From a virus: 31,820 bases of DNA. Made by a program: the position numbers and the translations under genes. Below the pieces are notes generated by a model. It was not told the origin of the DNA, did no database searches, and was given only the letters and a program-made list of their open reading frames with translations. Shown in pieces: positions 5,613 to 28,049 of the stretch (the stretch's first letter is position 1; each line of letters opens with the position of its first letter). The DNA is taken from positions 1-31,820 of IMG/VR virus record IMGVR_UViG_3300030331_000078; one strand, given 5' to 3'.

Positions 5613-5722
5613 TGTGGACTTGGTTGCGATTAGCTAAACTTTTTAATAAGATCGGTAATTATTTTTACTATAAACACGTACAATCTTTAAGGCAAAAGCA
5701 GGTAAAAGATGGACTTAGATAA
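5609..5722 (+). CDS. 37-residue Trp/Tyr-rich peptide
   Basis: A short gene with ATG at 5609 (or 5612). The product MMWTWLRLAKLFNKIGNYFY continues YKHVQSLRQKQ. It is an aromatic, amphipathic helix with basic residues on one face and no clear full-length membrane span. Similar peptides with the pattern G(N/D)YF(Y/W)YKH are familiar to me from marine phage genomes, without function. It overlaps the basic gene upstream and, by 14 bases, the lysozyme start. Inference: a membrane-interface lysis accessory peptide. Confidence 0.5.
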   Translation: MMWTWLRLAKLFNKIGNYFYYKHVQSLRQKQVKDGLR

Positions 5723-6167
5723 ATTACAAGAAGAATTAGCAGAAGATGAAGGGTGTAAATATGAAATTTATTTAGACCACCTTGGCTATAAGACGTTTGG
5801 AATTGGGCACTTGTGTAAAGCTACAGATCCAGAAAATGATATGGATGTAGGAACAGAAGTATCTAAAGAGAGAGTCGATGAGTGTTTTAAAGCCGACATA
5901 GAAATAACTATAGAGGACTGTAATATTTTATACAGTAATTTCAATGACATACCAGAAGAAGCTCAACTAATACTAGCAAATATGATGTTTAATCTTGGTC
6001 GTCCTCGTTTAAGTAAATTTTTAAAGTTAAAAGCAGCTGTGGATGATGAAGATTGGATGGAAGCATCTGTGCAAATGATGGACTCGAAATGGGCAAAACA
6101 AGTGCCTAATCGTGCAAAAAGGCTTTGTGAAAGAATGGAGAAGTTATCTTGGCTATTCAAGCAGTAA
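5709..6167 (+). CDS. Endolysin, T4-type lysozyme (GH24)
   Basis: The 152-residue protein has the catalytic triad of T4 lysozyme with identical spacing: Glu14 (in AEDEGC), Asp23 and Thr29 (in YLDHLGYKTFGIGH). The later NMMFNLGRPRLSKF, WMEASVQMMDSKWAKQVPNR and AKRLCERME align in order with the T4 enzyme's NMVFQMG, WDEAAV and NRAKR regions. It hydrolyses the MurNAc-GlcNAc bond of peptidoglycan. The length is close to T4 lysozyme (164). There is no signal peptide or SAR segment, so it should stay in the cytoplasm until the holin upstream opens the membrane. The next gene's ribosome site (GGAG at 6137) and TTG start lie inside its 3' end. Confidence 0.9.
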   Translation: MDLDKLQEELAEDEGCKYEIYLDHLGYKTFGIGHLCKATDPENDMDVGTEVSKERVDECFKADIEITIEDCNILYSNFNDIPEEAQLILANMMFNLGRPRLSKFLKLKAAVDDEDWMEASVQMMDSKWAKQVPNRAKRLCERMEKLSWLFKQ

Positions 6168-8996: not shown

Positions 8997-11900
8997 ATGG
9001 CTCCAGTAATTAGACCTATAAAAAAGATAATTAAAAAACCAATTAGGTGGATTGGTGACAAACTTAGAGATGTTGGTGATTGGGTTGTTGATGAGATAAT
9101 TGATCCTGTTATAAAGACAGTCGAAGGCACTATAGATGCTTTATTAGACGATCCTGTAAAAACTATAGCTACTATAGCTGCGGTTGCTACAGGAAATGCG
9201 TGGGCTCTGCCTCTTATAGAAGGTGCTGGTGTTGCTGTAAACGGCGGTGACATTGGTGATATTCTTGAAGCAACCGCTAAAGCCTATGTAGCACAACAAG
9301 TAGGTGCAGCCGCAGGTAACTACGCAGGTAAAGCTGCTGCGTCTAGTGCAACTTCAGCAGCACAAGCAAAAATAGTTGGATCTATTGTTGCACAAGGTAC
9401 GTCTAGTGCTACAGCTGCTGTGATATACGGACAAGATCCTGTTGACGCATTTTTAAAAGGTGGTGTGCAGGCTGGTGTGTCTGCAAGTTTAGGTCAATTA
9501 TCAAAGAATACAGATTATCAAAACCTACCACAAGCAGCTAAAAATGTAATAGAAACATCTATAACGGCTACACTATCAGGACAAGATGTAACTCCTGAAA
9601 TGATAGCTGGTGCAGTGACTAAAGCATATGTAACTGCCGAAACAGTAGGATCATATTTAAACAAGACTGAATATGACGAATTTGGAGATGTTCTACCTAA
9701 AGATTTTAACGACGCACAAATTGCAGCTATAACAAATGGTATATTAAATACAGCAAATGCAGCTTTTGCAGGTGGAGATGTGCCAAAAGCTATAATGGAC
9801 TCTGTAATGAAGTATGGAGCTCAAGAGCTTAGCAAAACTATTGATAAAAAAGTTAAAAATACAATAGATAAAGTAACAGGAAATTATGAAGCTACTGCAG
9901 ATAAAGCACAAGATGTTGATGATGCTATAGATTCTTACGAAACTGCTGCTGCTAACTATAATTCCGTTGCTGATGAGATGAAGTCTAGGTTTGATAAAAG
10001 GGCAGACTTTAAAAGAACTGTAGATGAACGTAGAAAAATTTTGCAAGAAACAAATCCTGACAATAACTCTGCTTATCAATCTGCGTTAACCAGATACAAC
10101 ACTGCTGTCAGAGCTTATAACACTTATGCTACAGATTTAGATAAAGATTATGCAGAAAGATATAAGCCATTACTAGATAAATATAAAGCTATGGCGGATG
10201 AAGCACAACAAAACATCGCTACATTTACTAACGAGTATAACACGTTAAAAGATGCGTTAATATCTAGTGGGGATCAGTTGGATGATGCGCTTAAACCTGT
10301 TCAAAGTGCAACTGATAAAGCATTTGTAACTGCCATGATTGGTGAAGATTTTAACCCAGAAGAATATGCAAAATTAAACGGTTTAGACGATGGCGGAGAA
10401 ACAGATGAGGCAGTAGATCCGTACTATCATTGGCTTACTGTAGGTAAAGAAGAAGGTTTACCTATAAACGCAGAACAATATAAGGTGCAATATACACAAA
10501 AAAGAAGTGATTTGTTAAATGAAGCTTTGAGTAAAGCAGGACTAAATTTAAGTAATTTAACCAAAGAACAACAAAAAACTATAATAGATAATTTCGATGC
10601 TAATTACGACGATATACAAACATTAAATTTGATAGATACAGATAGTCTTGGATTAGATATAAGTAAAAATTATTTAATAGACTCTATTAACAACTCCAAT
10701 GCGTCTCAAGAACAAAAAAATAAGTCAATAAATGATGTTAATACGCTTTTTAATGAAAATACGTCAACAGAAGAAAAATTTAACCAAGTTAAGTCTGTTA
10801 CCAATAATGTTAAAATAGATTCTGGTCAGGTAGTTGCAAAAGCAGAGGGCATAACTGATGAAGATATAGTCACTGGTAAAGCTCAAATACATATAGATAA
10901 AAATGGGTTGGTAAATTGGGACGACATTAGTGGATTAGAACTTCCAAAATGGGATTCTATGTATAATACAGTAGTAAAGAAAGTACCACACCCTACAATA
11001 CCTGGCGGATTTACTATAGTAGATGCAGGCACAAACAAGTATTTAAATCTTAACGAAGATGGTAGTCCTATGGTTAATATAACCATACATCCTGGAAATA
11101 CCCTTGAAGATTTACGAAAAAACGACCCTGCTTCTTGGGCTAAACATGTAAATAGTTTGGGGTATAAAGGTGGTCAACTTTTAAATGAAGTAACAAATGC
11201 TGTAAAAGGCACTATGGTAGATCACTATGAGTTAGTAAAAAATATCTACAAATATGCTGCTGAAACAAACACAGGTAAAGATATAATAAATAGTGACGGG
11301 TTTAAAAACCTTAGTGGTATTGCTGCAGAAGCAGGTGGAGAACTATTACAAGCTGCTAACGCATTAGTATTACTTGTAGGTATAAATCCTGAATCTACTC
11401 CACTTGGTAAAACTGCTAGAGAAATGATATCTCTCGGTGGGGATATGAAAACTGATGAATGGAAGGCGGCTAAAAAATCTATAGACGATAGAATAGCAGG
11501 TGCTACAGGGTTTATAGACACAACAAAAGCTATATTTGGTTCTTTAGCTGACAGCCCTACAGTCTTTTTATCAGAAATTATAGGTAAAGAATTATTACAA
11601 GAAGTGCCTGTATTACTTGTTAGTGGTGGCGTGGGTAATGTCGCAAAAAATGTAGTTTTAGAGGCGGGTGAAACATATGCAAAAAAATTAGGAGCAAAAG
11701 TAGGTTTTGGCACAGCTCTTACTCTTGATGCTGTCGAGTCTTTTGGTGGCACGGCAAGTGGAGCTTTTGATGATGCGTATGCAACAGCCTTAAAAGCAGG
11801 TATGTCAGAAGAAGAAGCTTCTGCTTTTGCTCAAGATGTTGCTCTAAGAGCAGGTACTACAGCAGTTATAACCAATTTTGCATTAAATAAAGTTGGTGGT

Positions 11901-14045
11901 GCTGATTTTGAAAAAGCCATGTTTGGTAACAAAAAGGGTGGCTCTATAGCAGAAGCATTTAATGCTTTTAGTAAGAATGTAGTAAAAGAATCTGGAACTG
12001 AAGGTGCTGAAGAGTTTGCTGGTCAAGGCATGGTAGAGTTATCTGTATACGGATTAGATCCAGATAGAGATATAGCTGGTAATCTTACAACAAATACCAT
12101 ACTCGGTGTGCTAGCAGGTGGTGGTACATCTTCTACGTTATTAGCAGGTAAAGGCGCATTTAATCAAACAGGAAATTTTGTGTCAAATGTGGTGTCAAAT
12201 ACTAATTATGAAGTTGATAAAGTATTAAAAGGCTATGATGGCACACCAGAGGGTCTAACAGCCGCAGAAACACAGCTAAATACTCTAGGATTAACTGATA
12301 ATATAGTAAAAACTAATCTACTCAATATAATGAGTCCAAGTGATTATACGAGTAGTGGAGATGTTATAGATGCGTTTAAAAATGTAAAAGATGTATACAT
12401 ACCTAAAAAAGGTGAACAAGATCAATTTGTAGGAAAAACTTCCGATGCAGATTTTGCTACAGAATTTGATACCTATATTGATGCAGGCACTGTGGATAAA
12501 CAAGAAATATTAGATTTAGCTACAGCAGAAGGTATAACACTTACAGATGAACAAATAGCAGAATTAGTGGGTCAAAAGCCTGAAGCAGAGTTTATAACAG
12601 AACAACAAAAGATATTTGATCCTTTGGCTGTAACAGAAGCAGAAGCTAAACAATATCTTGAAGCTCAAGGATATAAACCTACAAATGATGAGGTTAAACA
12701 GTTTGCTAAACAGGTCGCAGAATCAAAACAAAAAGAAGCTATTAAACAGTATGCACAAGATCGTCTTACCACAAAAGATGAAGTTATTTCGTATTTACAA
12801 TCTTTAGGATTTGATACTAATAGACTACCAGCTGAATTTATAGATCAATTTGTAAAACAAGGCTTGCAAACTGATACAGAAAAAGAAATAGCTGAAGCCG
12901 CTGATCCACTTTTTGTAGATAGAGATGAGGTCATAGCACAATTTACAGCCGCTGGACTGCCTGACGTACGACCTGAAGATGTTGATAAATTAGTTGGTCA
13001 ATATAATGAATCTGACCTAGAAAGAAGAGTAAACAGAGCCTTACGTGGTGCACAATATAATGTGCTTAAATATAACATAGGATCTCCATCTACAAAAGAC
13101 ACTCCTGCTACAGGTATATTTAAACAGTTAGAAGAACTAAAAGCTGCAGGTGCTACACAAGATGAGGCTATAAAAGCACTTAGTGAACAACTTAATGTAA
13201 GTATAGATGAATTAACTAGTCAAATATCAGCTGTAGAGTCTGGTATACAAGAGCAAATAATTGACGTAGGCGAACAAATATCTGATGTAGAAGCATCATT
13301 AACAGATCAAATACAAGAACTTGTAGATGCAGGTGCAACTCAAGATGAAGCTATACAAACTCTTAGCGATCAGCTTGGCATTAGTGTAGAAGATCTTACA
13401 AGTCAAATAACAGACGTAGAAACTGGACTTACACAAGAAATAGATCAAATAGCTGATATAATCGGTAAACCTGCAGGTGAAGTGACTGACGTAGATGTTG
13501 ATTTTGTTACCGATCTAATAGCACAACAAGAAGCATTATCTGATCCATCCACGTTTGAACTTACTCCTGAAATGTTGTTATATGATGTTACAGGTGATGG
13601 TAAAGTAGATGCAGCAGATCAAACAGTATTACAAAATGCTCTACAAGGACAAGATGTACAGTTTGCACAAGATTCTAAATTTGCACCAACAGGTATATTT
13701 GGCACTGTAGCTGACACACAAACAGATCTTACACAACAAATAATAGACTCACAAACGCAAATACAAAATTTACTTACACAACAAGCAGAAGATGAAAAAC
13801 AAAGACGTGCCATGCAAGCTCAAAGACAACAAAGAATGCAAAATGTACAACAGTTGTTTGGTGCTCTGCAGCCACAAACAGTTGAAGTAAAACAAGCACC
13901 AATAGCTCAAATAGGTGCACCCTATGATTTTCAAAGTATATTTAGAGATGCTGGACAAGAATCATTTTATAGAACGCCTTACAGAAAAGGTGGACAAGTT
14001 ACAGAAATTAATGATACATTATTAAAACTTATAGGAGATAGCTAA
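8997..14045 (+). CDS. Giant internal virion protein (1682 aa) with dockerin-like calcium motif
   Basis: The basic amphipathic N-terminus (MAPVIRPIKKIIKKPIRWIG) is followed by an Ala/Gly-rich hydrophobic region (to about residue 130), which could insert in membranes. Residues about 295-430 are a long coiled coil. Residues 450-495 contain FNPEEYAKLNGL and DPYYHWLTVGKEEGLPI, like a Tyr/His repeat seen in secreted bacterial proteins. Residues about 900-1050 are another hydrophobic Gly/Ala-rich helical region. Two 38-residue helical repeats occur at 1380-1417 and 1441-1478. Residues 1530-1541 form a calcium loop (DVTGDGKVDAAD) in a dockerin-like setting. The end (DFQSIFRDAGQESFYRTPYR) is conserved in marine phages. 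The size and composition suit an ejected core or tape-measure-like protein. No lytic transglycosylase or polymerase motif was seen. Confidence 0.65.
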   Translation: MAPVIRPIKKIIKKPIRWIGDKLRDVGDWVVDEIIDPVIKTVEGTIDALLDDPVKTIATIAAVATGNAWALPLIEGAGVAVNGGDIGDILEATAKAYVAQQVGAAAGNYAGKAAASSATSAAQAKIVGSIVAQGTSSATAAVIYGQDPVDAFLKGGVQAGVSASLGQLSKNTDYQNLPQAAKNVIETSITATLSGQDVTPEMIAGAVTKAYVTAETVGSYLNKTEYDEFGDVLPKDFNDAQIAAITNGILNTANAAFAGGDVPKAIMDSVMKYGAQELSKTIDKKVKNTIDKVTGNYEATADKAQDVDDAIDSYETAAANYNSVADEMKSRFDKRADFKRTVDERRKILQETNPDNNSAYQSALTRYNTAVRAYNTYATDLDKDYAERYKPLLDKYKAMADEAQQNIATFTNEYNTLKDALISSGDQLDDALKPVQSATDKAFVTAMIGEDFNPEEYAKLNGLDDGGETDEAVDPYYHWLTVGKEEGLPINAEQYKVQYTQKRSDLLNEALSKAGLNLSNLTKEQQKTIIDNFDANYDDIQTLNLIDTDSLGLDISKNYLIDSINNSNASQEQKNKSINDVNTLFNENTSTEEKFNQVKSVTNNVKIDSGQVVAKAEGITDEDIVTGKAQIHIDKNGLVNWDDISGLELPKWDSMYNTVVKKVPHPTIPGGFTIVDAGTNKYLNLNEDGSPMVNITIHPGNTLEDLRKNDPASWAKHVNSLGYKGGQLLNEVTNAVKGTMVDHYELVKNIYKYAAETNTGKDIINSDGFKNLSGIAAEAGGELLQAANALVLLVGINPESTPLGKTAREMISLGGDMKTDEWKAAKKSIDDRIAGATGFIDTTKAIFGSLADSPTVFLSEIIGKELLQEVPVLLVSGGVGNVAKNVVLEAGETYAKKLGAKVGFGTALTLDAVESFGGTASGAFDDAYATALKAGMSEEEASAFAQDVALRAGTTAVITNFALNKVGGADFEKAMFGNKKGGSIAEAFNAFSKNVVKESGTEGAEEFAGQGMVELSVYGLDPDRDIAGNLTTNTILGVLAGGGTSSTLLAGKGAFNQTGNFVSNVVSNTNYEVDKVLKGYDGTPEGLTAAETQLNTLGLTDNIVKTNLLNIMSPSDYTSSGDVIDAFKNVKDVYIPKKGEQDQFVGKTSDADFATEFDTYIDAGTVDKQEILDLATAEGITLTDEQIAELVGQKPEAEFITEQQKIFDPLAVTEAEAKQYLEAQGYKPTNDEVKQFAKQVAESKQKEAIKQYAQDRLTTKDEVISYLQSLGFDTNRLPAEFIDQFVKQGLQTDTEKEIAEAADPLFVDRDEVIAQFTAAGLPDVRPEDVDKLVGQYNESDLERRVNRALRGAQYNVLKYNIGSPSTKDTPATGIFKQLEELKAAGATQDEAIKALSEQLNVSIDELTSQISAVESGIQEQIIDVGEQISDVEASLTDQIQELVDAGATQDEAIQTLSDQLGISVEDLTSQITDVETGLTQEIDQIADIIGKPAGEVTDVDVDFVTDLIAQQEALSDPSTFELTPEMLLYDVTGDGKVDAADQTVLQNALQGQDVQFAQDSKFAPTGIFGTVADTQTDLTQQIIDSQTQIQNLLTQQAEDEKQRRAMQAQRQQRMQNVQQLFGALQPQTVEVKQAPIAQIGAPYDFQSIFRDAGQESFYRTPYRKGGQVTEINDTLLKLIGDS
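13134..13430 (+). repeat. Tandem 61-residue helical repeat inside the 1682-aa protein
   Basis: Two copies of a segment containing GATQDEAI and ending in DLTSQI(S/T)xVE are 183 bases apart (GAT codons at 13149 and 13332). They read ELKAAGATQDEAIKALSEQL and ELVDAGATQDEAIQTLSDQL, so about three quarters of residues agree. A spacer with coiled-coil character separates them. This is an internal duplication that extends a rod-like part of the protein. Confidence 0.7.
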
Positions 14046-14814: not shown

Positions 14815-15723
14815 ATGGCGAATGGAACAACAGATACAACAGGCATGACTGCTACAACTAGTGCTGGAAGCACATTAGGCAAACAAATAGGTACAGAATC
14901 GGCTCTTTCTAACTATGTTGGACCATATGTTACAGAAATGCTTGGTAGAGGTCAGGCTCTTGCAGGTATGCCATATCAAGCATATCAAGGACCTCTTACA
15001 GCAGGACAATCTGATTTACAAAGTAAAGCATTTAGCGGATTAGCAGGATTAACAATACCTACAGAACAGATGGGTGCATTTACACCAACAAGTTTTACTG
15101 AAGAAGGCACATCTCAAAAGTTTATGAATCCGTATTTAGAGGCAGCTTTACAACCTCAAATAGACGCAGCAAGAAGACAAGCAGAAATACAAAGAGTTCA
15201 GGATGCAGGTAGATTAACTAGAGCAGGTGCATTTGGTGGTTCAAGACAAGGTGTTATGGAAGCTGAAGGTAACCGTGCATTATTAGACAGGATAGCCAGC
15301 ATCACAGGCACAGGATATGCAAATGCTTTTGATAAAGCTGTGCAACAATTTAACGTTGAAGAAGACAGAAGACGAGCTGCTCAAGATATGGCTAACCAGT
15401 TTGGGTTGGGCACATTACTTAAACAAGCAGATATAGGTGCATTACAAAGAGGTATTGAATCTGAAGGTATTGCAGCTGATAGGGCACAGTTTGAAGAAGA
15501 AAGAGACTTCCCATATAAACAAGTACAATATATGCAGTCATTATTGCAAGGTCTACCTCTTGCAGCACAATCATATACGTATCAACAACCTACAGGAATA
15601 AGTGAATTATCGCAGTCTATAGGCGGAGTTCAAAAACTATATGATGCAATATTTGGTGGTGATAAAAATACAGGCATTACAACAAATCAAATGGACGCAA
15701 TAGATACAGGTGATGTGGAGTAA
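14815..15723 (+). CDS. Internal virion protein candidate (302 aa), conserved in marine podoviruses
   Basis: GGAGG lies upstream of the ATG. The core MNPYLEAALQPQIDAARRQA followed by EIQRVQDAGRLTRAGAFGGS and RQGVMEAEGNRALLDRIASI is a highly recognisable block in aquatic podovirus genomes. Next come a long charged helix (RAQFEEERDFPYKQVQYMQS) and a hydrophobic stretch near LLQGLPLAAQSY. The region is almost entirely helical and Gln/Ala-rich, as in T7 gp14/gp15-type ejected proteins, although no direct similarity can be shown by eye. Gene order among larger helical proteins supports a role in the internal core. Function is otherwise unknown. Confidence 0.6.
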   Translation: MANGTTDTTGMTATTSAGSTLGKQIGTESALSNYVGPYVTEMLGRGQALAGMPYQAYQGPLTAGQSDLQSKAFSGLAGLTIPTEQMGAFTPTSFTEEGTSQKFMNPYLEAALQPQIDAARRQAEIQRVQDAGRLTRAGAFGGSRQGVMEAEGNRALLDRIASITGTGYANAFDKAVQQFNVEEDRRRAAQDMANQFGLGTLLKQADIGALQRGIESEGIAADRAQFEEERDFPYKQVQYMQSLLQGLPLAAQSYTYQQPTGISELSQSIGGVQKLYDAIFGGDKNTGITTNQMDAIDTGDVE

Positions 15724-15726
15724 AAA

Positions 15727-17649
15727 ATGATAGGCGCAAATTTAGGTTCAGACGTACAAAGAAGAGTAGATGCTTATAAAGATAATCCTGCAGCATTACA
15801 AAAAAGATACATGCAAAGCCAAGAATTAGTTGATTTACTTGCTATGCAAAAAATGAAATCTGAAAAAGATGCGTATGCTCGTGATATGAGAATGAAGATG
15901 GAGAATAAACCAGCAACTATTGCGCAACAATATGAAGCAGAATTAGCAGGTCGGACTAAAGATGATATATTAAAAGGTGTTAGTGGGGTTCTTAGAAACA
16001 AGCAAGCTAAAGCACAATCAAATATAAATAAAGTAGCAGAGAGTGGTATAGCTAAAGCACCTGCACCTAATATGAAAAAATTGGCAGGTGGTGGTGTAAT
16101 TGGTTTTGCCGCAGGAGATCAAGTGCCAACTTCTTTATCTAAACTGATTGAAGAGAAAAAAGCAGAGTTAGAAAAAAGTTATAGAGCTGGAGATATAGAC
16201 TACGCAGAGTATTCAAAAGAGTTAGCAAAATTAGATGCACCTGCAAAGATAGGACCTGACAGTATAGCTAGAGATGTTTTAGGTAAAGATGGTATAATAA
16301 GTAGTCTAGTAGCAGATCAAAAGTATGACGATCAAAGTATGGGTCTTGGTTTTGGAGCATCTAAAGGTGAAAAAATACAACTTTCTCCTGGGCCTTATAC
16401 CACTGCTCTTACTAATGAGTTACAGAAAAAAACTCCTATTGGCCAATTAATGAAGCGAAACATAAAGAATAGAGCTAGTGAAATGGGTGGTCCTGAAGTT
16501 GCTTTAAAAGGCTCTCCAGCTCTTCCTATTGACGATGAATTTGAGGATGAGCCTTATGAACCTGAAAAGAAACAAGGTATAGCCGCATTAGATGTGCCTC
16601 AAGTAAAAGCAGCAACTATTGATCCAAATTTAGTTAAGTTTGATCCTAATAAAGTAAGTTACACTGCTCCTGATCGTAGTAGTGATATGAAAGATAAAGT
16701 AGCGGCAGGTATAAAATCTTTAATAGCTACAGATAAAGAAGATTTAAGAAAATATCTTGACGTTTCTGATGCACAGAAAGCACAGATAGATCAATTTGCA
16801 ACTGACAGAAAAGGTATAACAGCTAATTTACTTGATCCTGACAGACTTAGACGAGATAGAATATCTGCTGGTTTATTAGCCCCTGGTGGAGCTACACTTG
16901 GTGAGTCTTTAGGAAATATAGGACGAGGTATTTTAGGTGCAGAGGCTGCACAAGATAAAACTAGAATATCTGAATTTGATGCTAATAAAGCCCTATTTGA
17001 TAAAGAATTAGCACGAAGCCAAGGTATTAAGAAAGAAGCTGTGTTAGAAGAAGGAAAACGAATACGTCAAGGTATAGCTTCAGGACAATTATTTAGTGCA
17101 CAACAAGATAAAAATCTTAATGAAGATGCAAGAAATATATTAAATGCTGATATATCTAATGCTAGAAGTCAGGATGCTGCTGATTTACGCAAGATGACAT
17201 ACGGATTGGCACTAGTTAAAGAAGAAAACAAAGTTAATATAGCTAATCAATTAGCTACGAATACTGCAAGGGCAAACGAGTTAAAAGCAGAATTAAATAA
17301 AATAACTAAAGAATCTATGAACGTAAGTAAACTGCAAACTATATTAGGTTCTGTAAATAAAGAAATATCAAGGGCTGCTAAATCAGCAACAGAAGCGTTT
17401 AAATCTGAATTAGAGATGGCACAGTTAACACTGCAAGCAGCTTCAAAAGATACAAATAGTCCAGAATATAGAGCAGCATTAGAAACTCTTAACGATGTAA
17501 GAGGCAGACAGAAGTCCTTATATGACCTAATGGTAAGAGATCTTTCACAGCAAAGAACCGACATACTTAGAAGGTTAGGAGGTGCTGAAGGGACTAAATT
17601 ATCTAAAAATGTACAAAAAGCTTTAAATATAGCAAAAGGCTCAATATAA
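15727..17649 (+). CDS. Helical virion protein (640 aa), internal core candidate
   Basis: The protein begins three bases after the previous stop. The first 110 residues are a charged helix (RRVDAYKDNPAALQKRYMQS; DLLAMQKMKSEKDAY). A Gly-rich switch MKKLAGGGVIGFAAGDQ lies at residues 116-132 and resembles short Gly motifs in neighbouring genes. Residues about 330-620 are predicted by eye to be long coiled coils with many Lys/Glu/Ala/Gln residues. The central part has the block DRLRRDRISAGLLAPGGA, then LGESLGNIGRGILGAE, a hydrophobic interruption typical for proteins of this set. No catalytic motif is seen. Inference: an ejected internal protein or a scaffold-like rod, not an enzyme. I cannot assign a family. 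Confidence 0.6.
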   Translation: MIGANLGSDVQRRVDAYKDNPAALQKRYMQSQELVDLLAMQKMKSEKDAYARDMRMKMENKPATIAQQYEAELAGRTKDDILKGVSGVLRNKQAKAQSNINKVAESGIAKAPAPNMKKLAGGGVIGFAAGDQVPTSLSKLIEEKKAELEKSYRAGDIDYAEYSKELAKLDAPAKIGPDSIARDVLGKDGIISSLVADQKYDDQSMGLGFGASKGEKIQLSPGPYTTALTNELQKKTPIGQLMKRNIKNRASEMGGPEVALKGSPALPIDDEFEDEPYEPEKKQGIAALDVPQVKAATIDPNLVKFDPNKVSYTAPDRSSDMKDKVAAGIKSLIATDKEDLRKYLDVSDAQKAQIDQFATDRKGITANLLDPDRLRRDRISAGLLAPGGATLGESLGNIGRGILGAEAAQDKTRISEFDANKALFDKELARSQGIKKEAVLEEGKRIRQGIASGQLFSAQQDKNLNEDARNILNADISNARSQDAADLRKMTYGLALVKEENKVNIANQLATNTARANELKAELNKITKESMNVSKLQTILGSVNKEISRAAKSATEAFKSELEMAQLTLQAASKDTNSPEYRAALETLNDVRGRQKSLYDLMVRDLSQQRTDILRRLGGAEGTKLSKNVQKALNIAKGSI

Positions 17650-17658
17650 GGAGCAATA

Positions 17659-20600
17659 ATGAGTGAAATAGAAACACTTAGTAACTGGATTATTGCTAAT
17701 CAAGATAAAAAAGGCACTCCTGACTTTGAGGTTGTAGCTAATGCTTTAATAGAGCTATCTGATACATCTGATCCGTTAGTTGATGATGTTTTTAAACTAC
17801 AAGAACTTCCTGAAGAAGCCCCTATAAAAACAGATTTTATTGATGAAATAGAAGAAACTGTAAAAGGTATTGGTGGCGGTGCTGTTAATATATTAGAAAG
17901 TGCTGCTTTAGGTGCTATAACTCCTTTTGGCGAAGATACAGAATCTGAATTACGTGAAACTATACAATCTATAGGTGGGGCTGCAAAGTCTTTATTTGAA
18001 GCTGATAAAGGCTCAGAGGATTTAGTAGGTCGTAAATTTGGTGAAGCTCTAGGATCGTATGCAGGTATACTTGGAGCTGCTGCAATTCCTGGGGTTGGTC
18101 TACCTGCTGCCGCTGCTTTGGCTATAGGTGCTGGTGCTGGTGAGGCAAGTGAACGTGCCCGTGCAGGAGGTGCTACAGAAGATGAACGTGCTAAAGCTTC
18201 AGGTTTAGGTGCTCTCGTAGGTGCAACAGAACTTATATCTCCGATAAGAATAGTTCGTGCATTTAAGAAAGGCGTAGGTGATGACGTAGCAGAGACTATA
18301 TTTACTAAAGGTAAAAGAATATTACGAGAAGCTGGCGTAGAAGGCACACAAGAATTTTTAGCTGGTGTAGGTCAAAACCTTATAGAACAAAATATTTACA
18401 ACCCAGACAAAGGCACATTTACAGGAACTGGAGAAGCTCTTGGTTATGGTGCTGGTGTAGGTGGTTTTGTGCAAGCTGTTATGGAAGTTATCGCACCATA
18501 CAGAGCAAGAGGTAAAACTACAGAAGGAGCACCAGATGAGGCAGAACAAACAAAATTACTAGAAGATAAAAGAAGATTACAATTAGAAGATCAAAGACCT
18601 ACTGTAGATTTTGGACCTAGATTAGAAGAAGGTCAGATACAAGGAGAACTATTTGGTGATTTAGTTAAAGACATAGAAGGTGATCCAAATGTAGTTGAAC
18701 CTGAAAAATTAGTTACAGACACAGAAATAAAAGCCATAGTTGATAAATATCTTCCGAATAGAGATAAAGATGGTAAACCGATAGGAACAGAGGCAGAAAT
18801 ACAAGAAGGGTTTAGTAAAGCTGCAGCAGAAATAAATAATTTAGAACAAAAACGAAAAGAAGAAGCAGCTAAACCAAAAGCAAAAGTAAAAGACGACATC
18901 CCTGTGCAACGAGATATGATTGAAGAGCTCGAAGATGCACAGCTAAAGGGTTTAATAGACGCAGACGAAACTGCACAACTAAGAGATATGTTATCTAAAG
19001 ACGAAGAAGCTGCAATAAAACAATTAAAAACAAAAAGTGAAACATTAAATAATATAGAGCTAAAACAAATAGCTACTAGGTTAGAAAACAAAAGAAAAGC
19101 AGAAACAGCTACAAAACGAAACACTATATTAGATGAAATATTAGCCACCTCTGACACAGCTAGCCAAGTTAATACAGAAAAAACATTTTCTAAGGCGTTA
19201 GCAGATGCTGGTATAGCTAACACTACACCTAATCCACAAGAAAAAGCAAAAATAGCTCGTAAAACTTATGAAATAGAAGAAAGAAAAAAAGGTGTTGCAG
19301 ACGAATCTCCAGAATTTCAACGAGCAGCTAGAAGATTCGGTAAAGAAAGAGTACCAAAAACTGAAATACCTTCATTAGAAAAAGAAGTAAAAGCAAAAGC
19401 CGTATTGCCTAAAAAGCTAAGTGCTACCGCATCTCAAGACGTTGCTCCTGTTACAGAAAAGCCTGCCGTAGAGCCTGCCGTAGAGCCTGCTGTAGAACCT
19501 GCTGTAGAACCTGATAATCCTGTGTTAGAACGTGCGTATAAAAAAATGTCCGAGAACAAACCGTTGACGGACGAAGAGGTAGCAGAATTAGCTAAAGTAG
19601 AGGTCCCAGGAACTATTAGTGAAAAACCCATAGAACCTGATGAAAAACTCCCATCAGGAGAAACTAAAAAAGAATTTGGAGAAAGATATAGGAAAAACTT
19701 TGCAAGGGCAGTCTTTGAGGGTGCAAAAAAGAAAAAGAAAAATTTAAGTGATAGATTATCTAAAGTACAAAAAGGTAATGACAGAGGTCAATATGGTGTA
19801 TTAAATAGACAGCTAGACGAACTTATGGAAAGTGACAAGTCTATTATTGATAACGGACTTCAAATCACTAGAAAATTAGATGAGATGGATGCTTTTGTTA
19901 AAGCTAGAGAGACTGGAGTCGATACAGCTGCGCGTACTGAGTCAAAAACACGTGAAAAGAAGTTAACAGGTGATACTAAACGTAAGAAGGCCCGACAAAA
20001 GCCGTCAGATGATATAGGTGAAACTCTTGGATTTACTAAGAAAGATGTAAAAAGACAAATATCTAAAAAAGTTGACCCGAAAAAACTTGCAGAGCGTTTT
20101 GAAAAGGGGCAAGCAACAAACATAAAGAAAACTGAAGCAAGAGACAAAAAACAATCTGTTGAAGCCTTAAAAGAACAAGGTATTACTAAACCTACAACAG
20201 AACAAATAACTAAAGAAACTAAAAAAAGAAAAGAAAAAGTACAGTCTAAGAGAGATACAAAGTCAAAAATAGATGCTGTAACAAAAGATATTAAGTTAAC
20301 AGAGAAGCGTAAAATAAATGAAAAACAGCTAGCTACTTTTGTACAGGAAGATGTTACTCAAAAAGATAGAGATAAAACTAATGTAATCAAGCCCACTGCA
20401 GCAAGAGTAGCCGCAGATAATATTGAATTTTATATGAAAGAGTTTCCTAATCAGGATGCGACTACACAGTTATCTACAGAAGAATTACAGACAGTATTAG
20501 ATTTAGTAAGTAACCCACCTTCATCTGCTGATATAGCTAACCCTAGCAGGGATAAAACAGGTAGAGCTGCCGCATATGTTTATTTTAGTAAACAAGGAAA

Positions 20601-23600
20601 CCCTAGAGATGTATTAGATGTTGTGGCTCACGACATATTTTTTGCACCTAAACAACAAGATGCGTCAGACTACGAAAGCAAAGCTAGTAGAGAATATTTT
20701 TATAATTCTACAGAACAAAATGCTTTATTAGCTAGAAAATGGATAGACTCTAATTTAGGTAAAAGCCAAGTAAAAATACAAGAAGGTGAAACTGTCTATA
20801 AATTAGATTTTACTAATGTTGATTATGAAAAGAATACTCCAAATATAGATAAGTTAAAAAAGCTTGGGTATACAGATAAAGAAATTAGAAAAATTGTACC
20901 TATAAATCCAGAAACAGGTAAGCCAATACCTAGATTTGATAGGAGAACAAAGCCTAAAAAGAAAGAAGTAAGTACACCAAACATAACTTTTGTGCCTGCA
21001 AATAAAACTTTATACGATCTTATACAAAAAGAAGCTAATAACTATTTAGCTATGGATTCTAATGAAGCCTTGGTATCTTTGGGTGTAAGTAGAAGAGGTG
21101 ATGCGTTTAAGGCTGAAACTTTAAAAACAATACAGGAACAAAGAGAAGCCACAGCACCAAACGCTGTTATATATAACACTAATGAAGTAGTAAGTGGTCA
21201 TCTGCCTCCTGATGCTAAAAATCCAACTCCTGAAATAAAAGGTCTTGTGTTTGTTAAAGATGGTAAAGAGGTTTTTGGACCATTCCCTGAAGGTGTAAAT
21301 CACCCATTAAAAGATGTAAAACTAAAAGACTATAAATTTATAGAAACATCTGCTGTCAATGGACTTGACATACCCGTGCATCCTGTAGTCAATAGTTTAT
21401 TATCGCAAGGTAAACTGCACGAAGCGTTGGTTGCGTTAGGTAATTCTACTGCAAATAAGCGTGTGGCTCAAATAGCTCGTGCATTGTCTAAAGTATCAGG
21501 CACTACCAAAGTTAAAGTAGTAAAGAATCTTACAGCTGATAATTCAGGTAAAGAAGTTTCTGGTAAGTTTGATCCAAAAACAAATACAATATTCTTAGAC
21601 GCAGACACTGGCATCAACTCTCACGTTATACTACACGAGATGACGCATGCGGCTACGACTGAAGCATTGGCAAATAAATCAAGTCAAGAAGTAAAAAAAC
21701 TAACTGTCTTATTTAATTCTGTAAAAGGTATGTTAGACACTGCTTACGGAGCACAAAACTTAGATGAATTTGTAGCAGAAACATTTAGTAATCCTGAGTT
21801 CCAACAAAAACTTGCTGGTATGAATTATAAGAATACCAATGGGTTACAGACATTTTTTAATACCATAGGTAACTTTGTGCGAAAGCTTCTTGGTATGCAA
21901 ACTAAAGATATAAATACTGCACTAAATGAATCTGACCAGTTAATACAAGACATACTATCCCCTGCACCTAAGTTTAGAAATGCAGGTGAACTGCTACTGT
22001 TAAATGGTAAAGAAAGAATAAAAAGAGCAGGTGATTATATAGCTAACAAATATGAACAGACAAAGTCAGGAGAGACTAAACAACAGTTCCAAGAAAGATT
22101 AACAAGTGTTCTTAACAGTAGAGCGGCAAATAAATTAAAAACATGGATTTTAAGATCCCTGCCATTAAAAGCAGTTTCAGATCAAAATGGCGAGTTAAAT
22201 AAAAAAGCTATAGCTAGATTAAAAGAAGAATTAAACAACGTTACTACAGACGCAGAAAAGAAAGCCATACAAGAAAAATTAGCTATACTAAGAAATAACA
22301 CAGCCATGCAAATCAATGATGCCATATTAGATTTAGAAGGAGAGTTGGGTAAAGCTGACAAAGAAGTAGAAGGCACATTAAAAAAGCTAGAGCCTTGGAT
22401 AGTAAGTGCTAAAAAGAGTGGTAAGTTAGAAGCATGGAATGATGTAATACATGATAGCACGATAGAGGGTGTAGATCCTACAGCACCAGAAGATACTTAT
22501 AAGAACGATCCTGAGAAACTAGCAACTTATAAACAACTTAAAACCAAACTTTATGGACTCGGTGGAGATGCTGTAAGAAATTACATAAATCTTAAAAATG
22601 CGTACGAAACTCAATTTGAGCAGTTAAAAAAAGTATTAGAAACAAGAATGGCTGAGTTAACAGATCAAGCTACTTTTTCTAAATTTAAAAAAGATGTATT
22701 TAACAAGATATTTGATAAAGCTGCAATTAGACCTTATTTTCCTCTATTCCGTAAAGGGGACTATTGGTTACGCTATGAGATTCCTGTTACAAAATCTGAT
22801 GGCACAACAACCACAGAGTTAGTTGTAGAGGCTTTTGAAGGTTCTCAAGCTAGATTAAGAAGAATGAACGAGTTAAAAGAAGGTAAAATAGCATCAAATA
22901 TAGAACCTTATACTAACGTAACAACATCAAGTTTTAATAATGTACCTCCTACTTCTTTTGTAGGAGAGGTAATAGACTTACTTAAAAAATCTAACGTAGA
23001 TCAAACAACACAAGATGGTATTTTAAATTTATTTATAGATGTATTACCTGAATCTAGTTTTGCAAAAGGTTTTAAGAAACGAGAAGGTATATTAGGTGCT
23101 AAAAAAGACGCATACGAAGTGCTTAGAGAAAAAGGCTTTGACATCGGGCGACAAACTGCACGTATGTTATATGGTGCAAAAATTGCAAAACTACAAAGAA
23201 AATTAGAAGATGAAACTAAAGCATTTAGATTTGATAAAGAAGGTGAAGCAAGAGTTAGAGTTCAGGCAGAGATGTCAAAGAGAGCAGACTTTGCTAGAAA
23301 TCCTCCACCAGATCATATGGCATCTTTAGCTAACAGACTCGCATTTATAGGCACTATTGGATTTAACGTATCTTCAGCTATAGTTAACTTCTCTCAAATA
23401 CCTCTCATGTTTTATCCTGTGCTTGGAGGGCAGTATGGTTTAAAAGAAGCTAATTCTGCTTTAGGATTATCTACAAGATTGTTTGTAGGTAGTGGTCTAT
23501 CTCGTAAGATGAAGACTTTAAACGGAGATAACGTGGATGCTAAAGGCTCTGTGTCTATAGATAACTATTTTGAAGCTGATGGTGCAAACTTAGTGGTTAG

Positions 23601-25008
23601 AAAAGATTTAGAAGCCATATTAAACAAGACACAAGACGGCAAACAAAAATTAGAACAACTAAACAAAATTATACCATTAATAGTACAAGCACAAAATCAT
23701 GGTCAATTAGGTCGATCTTTATTTTATGATACTTTAAATATTGAATCTGCAGGGAAAACAAGAACTGCTTGGGATACTATAAACGCTTGGTCAGCGTGGA
23801 CTTTTCATCATATGGAGAGAATGAATAGACAAGTAGCACTTGTTGCTACTTATAATTTAGAATTAGATAGATTAAATAAAAAACCAAATTCTAAAGAACA
23901 AGACCTCTCGCCTACAGAAAAGCAAGAGCTCGCTGCAAAAAATGCCATATATTTAACTACAGAAATGAACGGTGGTGCTACTCTATCTACCACATCAGGT
24001 ATTGCTCAACAAGGAATTGGTAGAGTAGCTATGATGTATAAAGGTTATGGTATGCAGATGTATTATACTATGTATACACGTGCTAGAGATGCAATAAGAA
24101 AAGCTAGCGACCCTGATTTAACAGCAGAAGAAAATAAACAACTTAAAAAAGCCGCTATGAAACAAGTATCAGGAATACTTACGTCTTCATTCTTATTAGC
24201 AGGTGTACAGGGTATGCCTTTAATAGGAGGAGCATTATTTATAAGAAATTTACTTAAAGACGATGATGAGGAAGACGCAGAAACAGAATTACGTACATTC
24301 ATAGGAGAAGGTTTTTACAAAGGTCCAATAAATTATTTTGGTGGTGTAGACGTAGCTTCACGTATTGGTTTATCTAACTTGTTATTTAGAGCAAATCCAT
24401 ATCGAGATCCTGATGCAAGTTTAACAGATCAGTTGGGAGAATTACTTACTGGACCTGCAGGTAGTATGGCTAACCAAGTTTACAGAGGTATACAAGAGTT
24501 AAAAGAAGGTGAATTAGAAAGAGCAGCTATGAATTTTGTACCAGCCGCTATACGTAACATGTATAAAGCTACTATCAAGTATCCAACAGAGGGTGGTATA
24601 TTAACAAGACGTGGCGATGTTATATATGATGATTTAAATGCTTGGGAGACGGGAGCACAATTTTTTGGGTTTGCTCCTGCAGAATATACAAAAACACAAG
24701 AAATGAACAGAGTTACTAAAACTCAAGACAGAGATATAGTTAGCCAAAGCACTAAACTACTTAGAAAATATTATGTGGCAATTCGTATGGGTGATGACAC
24801 TCAAGATATTTTAGAGGATATATTAGAGTATAACAGAAAATTTCCTTCTGTTGCCATAACTCCAGACTCTATACTTAGATCTATGAGAATGCACATGAAA
24901 ACTTCTCTGTTAATGGATAGAGGTATAACTTTATCTCCTAAATTAAGGGCGTATCTATTGGCACAAAGAGATGAGTGGTCTCCAGCGTCATTGTATGATG
25001 AAGACTAA
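17659..25008 (+). CDS. Giant polyvalent-type virion protein (2449 aa) with zincin metallopeptidase motif
   Basis: AAGGAG precedes the ATG. In order: a hydrophobic Gly/Ala region at about 80-280 similar to the 1682-aa protein; a Lys/Glu-rich linker region (300-950) with four PAVE units at 602-617; a mixed region to 1290; then a zincin site, ILHEMTHAAT with His1326, Glu1327 and His1330, and a downstream LDEFVAETFSNPEF with Glu1370 or Glu1374 as likely third ligand. Further on are helical regions and a membrane-like C-terminal part (about 1900-2200; NFSQIPLMFYPVLGG, VSGILTSSFLLAGVQGMPLI) ending in an amphipathic helical tail. Such multi-domain proteins are known as phage polyvalent proteins, injected with the DNA. 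Inference: ejected peptidase-bearing protein that may cut host or virion proteins. No RNA polymerase or SLT motif was seen. Confidence 0.7.
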   Translation: MSEIETLSNWIIANQDKKGTPDFEVVANALIELSDTSDPLVDDVFKLQELPEEAPIKTDFIDEIEETVKGIGGGAVNILESAALGAITPFGEDTESELRETIQSIGGAAKSLFEADKGSEDLVGRKFGEALGSYAGILGAAAIPGVGLPAAAALAIGAGAGEASERARAGGATEDERAKASGLGALVGATELISPIRIVRAFKKGVGDDVAETIFTKGKRILREAGVEGTQEFLAGVGQNLIEQNIYNPDKGTFTGTGEALGYGAGVGGFVQAVMEVIAPYRARGKTTEGAPDEAEQTKLLEDKRRLQLEDQRPTVDFGPRLEEGQIQGELFGDLVKDIEGDPNVVEPEKLVTDTEIKAIVDKYLPNRDKDGKPIGTEAEIQEGFSKAAAEINNLEQKRKEEAAKPKAKVKDDIPVQRDMIEELEDAQLKGLIDADETAQLRDMLSKDEEAAIKQLKTKSETLNNIELKQIATRLENKRKAETATKRNTILDEILATSDTASQVNTEKTFSKALADAGIANTTPNPQEKAKIARKTYEIEERKKGVADESPEFQRAARRFGKERVPKTEIPSLEKEVKAKAVLPKKLSATASQDVAPVTEKPAVEPAVEPAVEPAVEPDNPVLERAYKKMSENKPLTDEEVAELAKVEVPGTISEKPIEPDEKLPSGETKKEFGERYRKNFARAVFEGAKKKKKNLSDRLSKVQKGNDRGQYGVLNRQLDELMESDKSIIDNGLQITRKLDEMDAFVKARETGVDTAARTESKTREKKLTGDTKRKKARQKPSDDIGETLGFTKKDVKRQISKKVDPKKLAERFEKGQATNIKKTEARDKKQSVEALKEQGITKPTTEQITKETKKRKEKVQSKRDTKSKIDAVTKDIKLTEKRKINEKQLATFVQEDVTQKDRDKTNVIKPTAARVAADNIEFYMKEFPNQDATTQLSTEELQTVLDLVSNPPSSADIANPSRDKTGRAAAYVYFSKQGNPRDVLDVVAHDIFFAPKQQDASDYESKASREYFYNSTEQNALLARKWIDSNLGKSQVKIQEGETVYKLDFTNVDYEKNTPNIDKLKKLGYTDKEIRKIVPINPETGKPIPRFDRRTKPKKKEVSTPNITFVPANKTLYDLIQKEANNYLAMDSNEALVSLGVSRRGDAFKAETLKTIQEQREATAPNAVIYNTNEVVSGHLPPDAKNPTPEIKGLVFVKDGKEVFGPFPEGVNHPLKDVKLKDYKFIETSAVNGLDIPVHPVVNSLLSQGKLHEALVALGNSTANKRVAQIARALSKVSGTTKVKVVKNLTADNSGKEVSGKFDPKTNTIFLDADTGINSHVILHEMTHAATTEALANKSSQEVKKLTVLFNSVKGMLDTAYGAQNLDEFVAETFSNPEFQQKLAGMNYKNTNGLQTFFNTIGNFVRKLLGMQTKDINTALNESDQLIQDILSPAPKFRNAGELLLLNGKERIKRAGDYIANKYEQTKSGETKQQFQERLTSVLNSRAANKLKTWILRSLPLKAVSDQNGELNKKAIARLKEELNNVTTDAEKKAIQEKLAILRNNTAMQINDAILDLEGELGKADKEVEGTLKKLEPWIVSAKKSGKLEAWNDVIHDSTIEGVDPTAPEDTYKNDPEKLATYKQLKTKLYGLGGDAVRNYINLKNAYETQFEQLKKVLETRMAELTDQATFSKFKKDVFNKIFDKAAIRPYFPLFRKGDYWLRYEIPVTKSDGTTTTELVVEAFEGSQARLRRMNELKEGKIASNIEPYTNVTTSSFNNVPPTSFVGEVIDLLKKSNVDQTTQDGILNLFIDVLPESSFAKGFKKREGILGAKKDAYEVLREKGFDIGRQTARMLYGAKIAKLQRKLEDETKAFRFDKEGEARVRVQAEMSKRADFARNPPPDHMASLANRLAFIGTIGFNVSSAIVNFSQIPLMFYPVLGGQYGLKEANSALGLSTRLFVGSGLSRKMKTLNGDNVDAKGSVSIDNYFEADGANLVVRKDLEAILNKTQDGKQKLEQLNKIIPLIVQAQNHGQLGRSLFYDTLNIESAGKTRTAWDTINAWSAWTFHHMERMNRQVALVATYNLELDRLNKKPNSKEQDLSPTEKQELAAKNAIYLTTEMNGGATLSTTSGIAQQGIGRVAMMYKGYGMQMYYTMYTRARDAIRKASDPDLTAEENKQLKKAAMKQVSGILTSSFLLAGVQGMPLIGGALFIRNLLKDDDEEDAETELRTFIGEGFYKGPINYFGGVDVASRIGLSNLLFRANPYRDPDASLTDQLGELLTGPAGSMANQVYRGIQELKEGELERAAMNFVPAAIRNMYKATIKYPTEGGILTRRGDVIYDDLNAWETGAQFFGFAPAEYTKTQEMNRVTKTQDRDIVSQSTKLLRKYYVAIRMGDDTQDILEDILEYNRKFPSVAITPDSILRSMRMHMKTSLLMDRGITLSPKLRAYLLAQRDEWSPASLYDED
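19462..19509 (+). repeat. Four 12-base units encoding PAVE
   Basis: Four in-frame copies of the 12-base unit (first two identical, last two identical with two third-position changes) code for PAVEPAVEPAVEPAVE in the linker of the 2449-aa protein. A unit that can slip makes a length-variable linker. Confidence 0.85.
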
Positions 25009-25226
25009 GTAAGTCGCCAAACACGTACGCCTAGCTTTTCGTCTTCTACACGTATTTGCATTTGATACTCCCAACCTCTGTCGTTCATCACATCTCTAAT
25101 TTGACTTAGTGCTTCCTGGACGTTAATCGAGAGGATAAACACAGAGGAACCTACTACCATGTCATTCCAGTTGACTACAATACGAACCCCATCAGGATTG
25201 AGGTCATGCTTCTTCAGTATTGCCAT
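25005..25226 (-). CDS. Small conserved phage protein at the 3' end of the replication arm
   Basis: A 73-residue soluble protein (MAILKKHDLNPDGVRIVVNW; ending LGVRVWRLT). The ATG lies inside the end of the primase-helicase gene (23-base overlap), so translation is probably coupled. The pattern of a short beta hairpin, a helix (VQEALSQIRDVMNDRG) and a final strand with a VRVWR motif is familiar from marine phages, but no function is known to me. The stop codon overlaps that of the convergent late gene by three bases. It may be a replication accessory factor on account of its position. Confidence 0.65.
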   Translation of the reverse strand: MAILKKHDLNPDGVRIVVNWNDMVVGSSVFILSINVQEALSQIRDVMNDRGWEYQMQIRVEDEKLGVRVWRLT

Positions 25227-28014
25227 CTATCTTCTCTATAGAACAATCTACTATTATAACCCACGTTGCAGGTAGATTCATATGTGTCCCTTTACTCAAT
25301 CTCATCTTAGATCTAGTAGCTCCTAATTTAGTCGTAAGGTCGTGTACAAAAGAGTTATAGTTTATCTGTTGTTCACCACACCAAGCTTTTAATGGTTTTG
25401 GTAATAAGTATGCACGTTTTAAATCTGTTTCGTATCGTGCAACTAACTTACCTCTTGGTACGGCTTCGGGTATAATCAAAGAGTCTTTATCTATATCTTG
25501 TTGTTTGCGTAAGTCGTCAGTGCTTTTTATCCACAGCACATTACTCCAGTGTTCATGTATAAAATCATTAAGCACTTCCTCTACAGATACATTCATATCT
25601 TCTACTTGACGCTTGTTCTCTGATAATTGTGATACTCCCCACTCAAATACTTTTTTAGGGTCGTAATCTACGAGACCTAGTTTATTAGCTATCATAATCC
25701 CAGTGACTGTTGCTGATACTAATATAGACCAAAATCTATTCTCTGCTGTAAGACCTGCTTTTTTATCCACACGCTGTTGTATCTCTCCTAGTAACTTCTT
25801 AACAGAAGATGTATTGTTCATCAGGTATTGGACATACTCTTTACCTGCGTGTCCGTAGTTCTCTTGTAAAGCTGTGCTAAACACATCAGTTTCTTCTTTT
25901 GTTTCAAAGTGCATACGCTTTACACGACACTCTAATATTCTTTGTGCCTCTGCCTTTGGCATAGCTTTTGTAATACTTATACGCTCTATCATACTTGTAT
26001 TACCAGTGGTAACAGCAAGCAATCTCCACGATTCACCTCTGTGTCTTTCTGTGTTACTACCACTAGCCATACGACCTCGTTGTCTACCACCCGTCAGTTG
26101 ATAAGCTATATTACTTAGTTCTCGCCCGTGTGTATTAGTCAACTCATCCATATATAACGGTAAGTTATGGTATATCTCACCTCTGTTCATCTTGGTATTA
26201 TATGTATCTCTTTCATGTATTATTAAGTCATCAGGTCTACCCCAAACAGATACAGCGGCAGACATGGCTGTAGTTTTACCAACGCCCGAATCTTTACTGT
26301 ATATATGTAACCCTGCACAATTTATGGGTGAGAACTGCATCAACGGAGAGCCAAACGACGTACCAACTACAAACTGATGTAGCTCAAACCCATCTTTATT
26401 GTAAAAATTTATGGCTTTCTTCCAATCTTCCATAGTACCTTTTGGCTCGAAAGACGGGAACAATCCTGCTGTCTGTGTAGATGGAGGATTAAATTCAACC
26501 TTATCTTTAAATATTTCCTGATTGCCAAGTATGAAAGACTCACAATCTTCACTAGTCCAACCAAACTGTCTGTGTGCTTGATCTGCAACACTATTGGCTT
26601 GTAACTCGTTTACCCATGTTGTCGTGTACTGCATTAGCTCATCCATTTTTGTAACTGCTACACCTTGCATGGACATGTACTTTCTAAACTCCTCCCTAGA
26701 TGTAACAGCAGTTAGTGGTAGAGTAAACTCTCTTACTCCGTCTTTCGGTAGATGCAATCGCATAACGATAGCCTCACCAATTTCTACATCACGCAGTCTT
26801 CTAACTACGTATAAATCATTGTGGTATATAATCTTTTCATCAGGATCTCCGTCTGCGTTACGAGTCCTTATGTACACTCCTCCGTTCGCACCTCTAAAAT
26901 ACGGTCTAGGATATGCAGGTATTGTGTATATGTTAGTCGGAGAGTTCGGTAAATTTATTGCAGGTGCTTCCACTATATTATCTTCTTCTGTAGCCTCTTT
27001 TACTCTCTGACCCAAAACTATAGGAGATTTTATCTTACCCCAATGAATACAATTAGTACATATTTCAGGACTATATTCATCAAAAGTGTTACATAGATAC
27101 GGGCCTTTTATGGCTTCTACTTTCCTGTTAGTATCTTCTGGTGTGTAGTCTGAGTGATGCCTGGATACAATATGCGTGGCTTCTTTTCCATCTATACAGT
27201 ATTTAGCTATGGATAAACCTGCTCTCCACAAAGGCTCACTTATCTCTTGTTGGTTCTTAATTATATTCTTTAACTGACCACAACCTTTACCTGCCTTTGT
27301 TTTATTTACAATATCTAAGAATACACTCTCTTTGTCACTTACAAAATCGCTATCATTACGCACATACTTCTTGGGTATCTCTATAGGCTCATTACCAAGT
27401 AACTCACTAAACTCATCAAAATCTACTGATGGTGGCACATCAAACCCGAAGAAAGTTACTTCTGTAGGTGGATCTGTTTTATGATTGTGCGTCTTAGGTA
27501 TACGCAGTACACGGCAGATATCAGCAGTCACAGCCACATCTGCTAACAAGTTATGCTGTATACACTTAGCTTTCAACACCCGCGAAACTTGTAGCCAATT
27601 TTCTTTACCCACACTTTCAGTTAAACCCCAGTAGACATGCACTCCTCTACCCGAGTTTACAGTCAAAGGTTTAGGTAGTTTTAATTCTTTACAAAATCTA
27701 CGTAATGCAACTATGGCATCACCTTGATTGGCATAGTCCTTACTTGGACCACAATCTAAGTCGAGAAAAAAAGACTTAAGTTCTTTTACGTTATCTGCTT
27801 TCCTAGAGCCATCTTTATCGTATGTGGCTAATCCAAAATAAGAGTCGTAACCTTTTGCATCAAAAGCAACGGCTCCTTCAATTAAATGTCCGATAGTGGG
27901 ATAAAATTTCTGCACCCTACGATCGTCTTTTGATCGTATAGCTAACAAGGCATAAAGACCATCGTCTGCTAATACGTTTTTTAAAAATACATCTGTTTCC
28001 ATATCATCCATCAT
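25204..28014 (-). CDS. Primase-helicase: AEP-type primase, zinc motif and P-loop helicase
   Basis: The product has 936 residues from the ATG at 28014; in-frame GTGs up to 28035 would add seven, and the GGTGG before the ATG may act as ribosome site. The AEP primase core is visible: metal-binding FFLDLDCG (Asp85, Asp87), SGRGVHVYW (His126) and RVLRIPKTHNHK (Arg168). A Cys cluster CNTFDEYSPEICTNC, ending HWGKIKSP, lies between the domains as in related phage primases. The helicase part has Walker A SKDSGVGKTT (Lys580), Walker B LPLYMDEL (Asp623, Glu624), and a sensor-like LLAVTTGNTS. Role: priming and unwinding at the phage replication fork. It begins 36 bases after the terminator of the preceding operon, so it may need readthrough or its own promoter. 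Function is confident; helicase subfamily less so. Confidence 0.85.
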   Translation of the reverse strand: MMDDMETDVFLKNVLADDGLYALLAIRSKDDRRVQKFYPTIGHLIEGAVAFDAKGYDSYFGLATYDKDGSRKADNVKELKSFFLDLDCGPSKDYANQGDAIVALRRFCKELKLPKPLTVNSGRGVHVYWGLTESVGKENWLQVSRVLKAKCIQHNLLADVAVTADICRVLRIPKTHNHKTDPPTEVTFFGFDVPPSVDFDEFSELLGNEPIEIPKKYVRNDSDFVSDKESVFLDIVNKTKAGKGCGQLKNIIKNQQEISEPLWRAGLSIAKYCIDGKEATHIVSRHHSDYTPEDTNRKVEAIKGPYLCNTFDEYSPEICTNCIHWGKIKSPIVLGQRVKEATEEDNIVEAPAINLPNSPTNIYTIPAYPRPYFRGANGGVYIRTRNADGDPDEKIIYHNDLYVVRRLRDVEIGEAIVMRLHLPKDGVREFTLPLTAVTSREEFRKYMSMQGVAVTKMDELMQYTTTWVNELQANSVADQAHRQFGWTSEDCESFILGNQEIFKDKVEFNPPSTQTAGLFPSFEPKGTMEDWKKAINFYNKDGFELHQFVVGTSFGSPLMQFSPINCAGLHIYSKDSGVGKTTAMSAAVSVWGRPDDLIIHERDTYNTKMNRGEIYHNLPLYMDELTNTHGRELSNIAYQLTGGRQRGRMASGSNTERHRGESWRLLAVTTGNTSMIERISITKAMPKAEAQRILECRVKRMHFETKEETDVFSTALQENYGHAGKEYVQYLMNNTSSVKKLLGEIQQRVDKKAGLTAENRFWSILVSATVTGIMIANKLGLVDYDPKKVFEWGVSQLSENKRQVEDMNVSVEEVLNDFIHEHWSNVLWIKSTDDLRKQQDIDKDSLIIPEAVPRGKLVARYETDLKRAYLLPKPLKAWCGEQQINYNSFVHDLTTKLGATRSKMRLSKGTHMNLPATWVIIVDCSIEKIDGNTEEA

Positions 28015-28049
28015 ATAGTTAATCGCCACCACCACCCCCTGAAAAATCT

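Follow-up and report, generated by a model that had tools for sequence, protein, structure and literature searches.

A predicted zincin metallopeptidase at a fixed place in a giant, putatively ejected phage protein that may cut itself after entry

What the peptidase domains of giant ejected phage proteins do has stood as a question since at least 2017. It is raised again by the window analysed here, a 31.8-kb virus fragment (IMG/VR record IMGVR_UViG_3300030331_000078, 31,820 nucleotides), in which one gene encodes a putatively ejected virion protein of 2449 residues (Table 1). A first-pass annotation, made from the sequence alone, had taken this to be a phage polyvalent protein with a peptidase domain and had read its HEMTH and DEFVAE motifs as a zincin signature.

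Table 1 Features of the giant gene, its protein and the two genes before it, in window coordinates
Feature	Residues	Nucleotides	Strand	Remarks
Giant polyvalent, putatively ejected virion protein		17659..25008	+	2449 aa, ATG start
Two preceding genes, probable smaller ejection proteins		14815..17649	+	302 and 640 aa
Conserved Gly/Ala-rich N-terminal region	~70-300	17866..18558	+	Matched in ~54/92 complete relatives; invariant columns inside
Variable middle, presumed payload and linkers	~301-1249	18559..21405	+	Low conservation
Zincin metallopeptidase domain (predicted)	1250-1437	21406..21969	+	AlphaFold2 pLDDT 86.6; PDB profile and structure matches; Pfam zincin families matched by members
HEMTH: His1326, Glu1327, His1330	1326-1330	21634..21648	+	Invariant in 87 sequences
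DEFVAE	1369-1374	21763..21780	+	Glu1370 (nt 21766-21768) invariant in 87 sequences
LPD39 (PF18858), partial match	1584-1668	22408..22662	+	34.9 bits against a cut-off of 27, E 1.6e-8
tail-700/PLxRFG C-terminal module (NF032893)	1692-2430	22732..24948	+	315 bits against a cut-off of 100, E 1.1e-93

The protein is encoded among virion genes: the window also has tail fibre, virion structural and ejection-type genes, and a 68-kb contig of a relative has terminase, portal and major head genes. An AAGGAG lies just 5' of the giant gene's ATG and overlaps the stop of the preceding gene. The shorter of the two preceding products has a weak PHROG match to 'DNA ejection protein' (E 0.0047), and the relatives L001 and L005 keep the same order of two smaller genes followed by the giant one. 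The giant gene closes a probable ejection-protein operon. Replication genes converge on it from the other side, a layout similar to that of Vibrio phage PG11 and crAss cr55_1, where the giant gene is likewise the last before convergent genes. From gene order and relatives we infer, on good grounds, that the protein would be ejected with the DNA. A search for a host via genome contigs found none. The product of the convergent gene at 25204-28035 (minus strand), 943 aa long, matches DUF927 and PHROG primase/helicase entries, and the gene is retained in six related contigs. Upstream in the same operon (8997-14045) lies a gene for a 1682-aa protein, another giant virion protein, with only sub-threshold Pfam matches and no PHROG match.

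The polyvalent assignment is supported by the LPD39 match above its cut-off, by the tail-700/PLxRFG module, which passes the NCBIfam threshold, and by a gene order resembling known ejection cassettes. Having LPD39 together with a zincin, the protein belongs with the large multidomain proteins with LPD-type domains and an MPTase described by Iyer et al. 2017. Its C-terminal module is mostly helical in the predicted model, and PHROG matches the protein to a DarB-like tail. The resemblance to DarB is limited to this tail: Pfam and NCBIfam searches of the 2449-aa protein found neither the DNA methylase nor the helicase domains of DarB-type antirestriction proteins. No N4-type RNA polymerase domain was found in the window or in six related contigs, with the positive control, LIT1, recovered. 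The 'linkers' of the first-pass annotation fit the poorly conserved middle, in which no Pfam domain was found in the window protein. In one relative the corresponding half has an ADP-ribosyltransferase (ART-PolyVal) domain, which suggests that effector domains can be accommodated in this variable half. The 'membrane-like helices' came down, by hydropathy, to a single strongly hydrophobic stretch (residues ~135-160) inside the Gly/Ala-rich N-terminal region.

HEMTH is the only HExxH within any long ORF of the window. Our first domain search used HEMTHAAT as its pattern, which biased the conservation figures; they were replaced by motif-independent recruitment with the C-terminal region alone as query, giving 64 ORFs with enough upstream sequence. 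An HExxH is present in 63 of these, 1028-1209 aa from the C-terminus. Given a chance expectation of ~0.003 per 700 aa at the protein's composition, its retention, by these counts, is beyond chance. An exception among the relatives is L149 (1-5250): LPD39 and the tail are present, and upstream of them neither a zincin nor a JAMM motif was found.

Across 87 non-redundant domain sequences, whose identity falls to 22%, invariance is confined to His1326, Glu1327, His1330 and Glu1370; the way in which segments were picked partly fixes the three HExxH columns but leaves the Glu1370 column free of that bias. The site thus combines an HExxH and its conserved general-base Glu with a downstream Glu. For the third zinc ligand the first-pass annotation had named Glu1370 or Glu1374. 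Since the former is invariant and the latter is Glu in only 80/87 sequences, Glu1370 is most likely the ligand; Glu1374, replaced by Asp, Trp or Tyr in 7/87, was rejected. Four invariant residues on a drifting background, together with the retention in 63/64 recruits, argue for an active site.

Queried with the single protein sequence, Pfam and the PDB yielded nothing useful, whereas the 87-sequence profile succeeded. An AlphaFold2 model built on the same alignment (pLDDT in Table 1) has a helix, three strands, the HExxH helix, a further helix and a helix bearing Glu1370 (119-128 of the model). Residues 1250-1437 are therefore predicted to have the zincin core topology, an N-terminal helix, a three-stranded sheet, the HExxH on one helix and the ligand Glu on a later one. 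Against the PDB, the domain profile matched a phiKMV-type internal virion protein (9sfn, E 1e-13), PhiM1 gp48 (8vb2, E 1.8e-7), a virion RNA polymerase (11fw, E 3.7e-4) and gp10 of 23sg (E 0.0017), with anthrax lethal factor next (E 0.002). Foldseek against the PDB returned no match at E <= 0.001 for either a 1200-aa model or the domain alone, and a structure search of a viral library returned 18 at that threshold. Structure comparison with VIA-align ranked 8vb2 (Z 9.8) and N4 gp50 (Z 8.0 and 7.7) on top, followed by Spartan and lethal factor; because Z <= 8 is weak alone, the kinship with zincins and ejection proteins rests on the concord of profile, structure and residues. Structural rows for N4 and PhiM1 beyond the zincin (rmsd 13-24) were excluded. 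Members of the alignment matched the Pfam families DUF6782 (23/87), Tox-MPTase4 (8/87), SprT-like (7/87) and lethal factor (4/87), and no Pfam model exceeded its cut-off for the window's own zincin subgroup. Profile-profile probabilities were 99.2 for N4-like C1 domains, 98.9 for a crAss protein and 97.4 for a phiKMV-type protein; control segments gave 0.1-1.3. The closest solved relatives are thus phage ejection proteins: PhiM1 gp48, the phiKMV-type internal virion protein and the N4 virion RNA polymerase. Of the checks proposed with the original zincin reading, profile search and predicted topology support it as far as they go, as does the conserved HExxH in homologues.

Zincin-like MPTase domains in phage polyvalent proteins, N4 included, were published by Iyer et al. 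2017 (PMC5512222), and relevant passages of that paper also propose self-processing of such proteins, after injection as well; both ideas have thus been known since 2017. The domains described there share with ours the HExxH and downstream Glu, the zincin core and the setting in a giant multidomain protein beside LPD domains. PhiM1 gp48 (8vb2, PMC11440229), a tetrameric ejection protein, and phiKMV-type 9sfn contain the same domain with HExxH and downstream Glu, but they are about half the size of the window protein and their tails are unrelated to its tail by profile. Domain C1 of N4 gp50 (9pnr, 9pnt; PMC12633501) is a related zincin, likewise encoded by the final gene of its ejection cassette and followed by a large helical C-terminal part; however, gp50 has an RNA polymerase, which the window protein lacks, and the two C-terminal parts are unrelated by profile (0.4%). 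The giant protein of crAss-like cr55_1 has a homologous zincin, and its gene adjoins another giant gene in the virion cluster; its C-terminal part, again, is unrelated by profile. A common origin of the window tail with N4 C2, phiKMV or crAss tails was unsupported by profile comparison.

The nearest relatives by tail are the DarB-like/PLxRFG (tail-700) giants of Lastavirus, Parlovirus, Sinorhizobium phage PBC5 and others. They share the tail (profile 100), the operon position and a metallohydrolase motif equally far from the C-terminus. They differ in that several carry methylase, helicase or lysozyme-type payloads, which the window protein does not, and in the metallohydrolase itself. Known phages with the tail-700 tail, found without a zincin query, have zincins of other types, equally far from the C-terminus. 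In PBC5 (L090, 5977-14526) there is no zincin; an HNHP...S..D site lies 1126 aa from the end, and Agrobacterium phage Atu_ph08 (L186) has such a site likewise. Among 47 scorable relatives of the PBC5 tail, 24 have zincin and 23 JAMM-like motifs (pattern counts, in which single cases may be wrong). In one pair the motif type differs between tails that are 67.7% identical, and upstream similarity is confined to the last 80 residues before the tail.

The position immediately preceding LPD39/tail-700 thus nearly always holds a metallohydrolase motif, yet of differing types, even between tails 68% identical, which suggests that hydrolysis at this slot is under selection. A stronger version, in which the slot is a dedicated metallopeptidase place and unrelated metallohydrolases are swapped in because the payload must be cut free after entry, is possible but rather doubtful. 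The comparative finding of metallohydrolase-type replacement in one slot looks new; neither it nor the zincin identity of the PhiM1 'endolysin-like' domain is stated in the relevant literature passages, which does not in itself prove novelty.

The JAMM-like E...HNHP...S..D domain occurs at the zincin place, ~1113-1126 aa from the C-terminus, in PBC5, Atu_ph08 and L187-L214. Its site consists of an invariant Glu, two His, a Ser and an Asp, and profile searches for a JAB fold in it brought no confirmation. Serratia phage Parlo (L092, 4770-16064) has two zincins of different types in one protein: that at residue 1195 (HELVH) is of the window's type, and the other, at residue 2557 (HEAFH), occupies the slot ahead of the tail.

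Starting from the predicted fold, the invariant site, the domain order and the fixed position, we infer the rest of a possible mechanism: ejection, zinc binding, catalysis, timing and substrate. Zinc would be held by His1326, His1330 and Glu1370, with Glu1327 as the general base, in a domain with the variable payload half on its N-terminal side and the conserved LPD39/tail-700 half on its C-terminal side. The 2449-aa protein would probably be packaged whole, ejected with the DNA and refolded at or in the host envelope; only then would the zincin cut its own chain, or other copies, near the payload/tail junction and free the payload from the tail. We favour this post-entry self-cutting tentatively, at somewhat under an even chance, because the place rather than the type of domain is conserved and because it divides the variable payload half from the conserved tail. 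With the site kept amid drift and other metallohydrolases at the same place, the idea is directly testable.

Several points weigh against it: (i) The relevant parts of PMC12633501 describe recombinant N4 gp50, which has a related zincin, as purified and imaged in full-length form; in PhiM1 virions the alignment follows one gp48 chain from ahead of the zincin as far as residue 911. (ii) No gene split at the slot was found among relatives with a complete slot region. (iii) The JAMM-like domain found no confirmation in profile searches. (iv) An action on nucleic acids has been proposed for RadC-type JAB domains. (v) L149 lacks either motif. With N4 gp50 at full length and the PhiM1 chain continuous across its zincin, self-cutting is not spontaneous; something would have to set it off, for instance refolding once the protein has been ejected. 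The full-length N4 enzyme is reported in PMC12633501 to be less active than the isolated polymerase; by analogy, and as an idea only, a cut between the polymerase and the C-terminal part could in principle switch the polymerase on.

Alternatively, the zincin could serve as an effector against a host protein once inside the cell, cleaving for instance a component of defence, the envelope or transcription, and have no part in self-processing. Secreted effector proteases, anthrax lethal factor among them, and toxin families such as Tox-MPTase4 share its fold, and host targeting is among the possibilities listed in the relevant passages of Iyer et al. (PMC5512222). We nevertheless consider this unlikely, in that the zincin is fixed at one place beside the structural tail in nearly all relatives, whereas it is the effector-like half that varies. 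Action during assembly, with the zincin trimming its own protein or the neighbouring giants before or in the head, is improbable: phage P1 DdrB carries such a domain and is, according to PMC5512222, processed before packaging, but the same source describes N4 vRNAP as packaged unprocessed, and in PhiM1 virions the chain of the related protein runs unbroken through the zincin.

Slightly less probable again is a structural or otherwise non-peptidase zincin relative, its metal site kept for stability or for another reaction. The relevant passages of the PhiM1 and N4 structure papers report no activity for the domain, radical-SAM-related enzymes are cited by the N4 authors as another place where HExxH occurs, and the N4 domain shares in contacts that hold the polymerase. 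Against this, the only invariant residues are the four of catalytic type, general base included, while the rest of the domain drifts, and other metallohydrolase types occupy the same place.

Least probable of all is that the domain cuts cell-wall peptides as the ejection channel crosses the periplasm, a role in keeping with the endolysin/exotransglycosidase-like description of the PhiM1 domain in PMC11440229 and with phiKMV-type records labelled 'internal virion protein with endolysin domain', but at odds with profile and structure matches to protein-cutting zincins rather than cell-wall enzymes and with a separate lysozyme-like gene in the window (5709-6167). The relevant passages of PMC11440229 do not describe the PhiM1 domain as a zincin. 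Judging from its match to the zincin profile, with HExxH and downstream Glu, the published endolysin-like label of the PhiM1/phiKMV-type domain is probably wrong; with that domain indicated as a zincin and not an endolysin, the choice of substrate to test changes. The same match, HExxH and downstream Glu included, is seen in the 'endolysin-like' domains of 8vb2, 9sfn and the phiKMV-type phage PZH3 (L107, 4759-8772).
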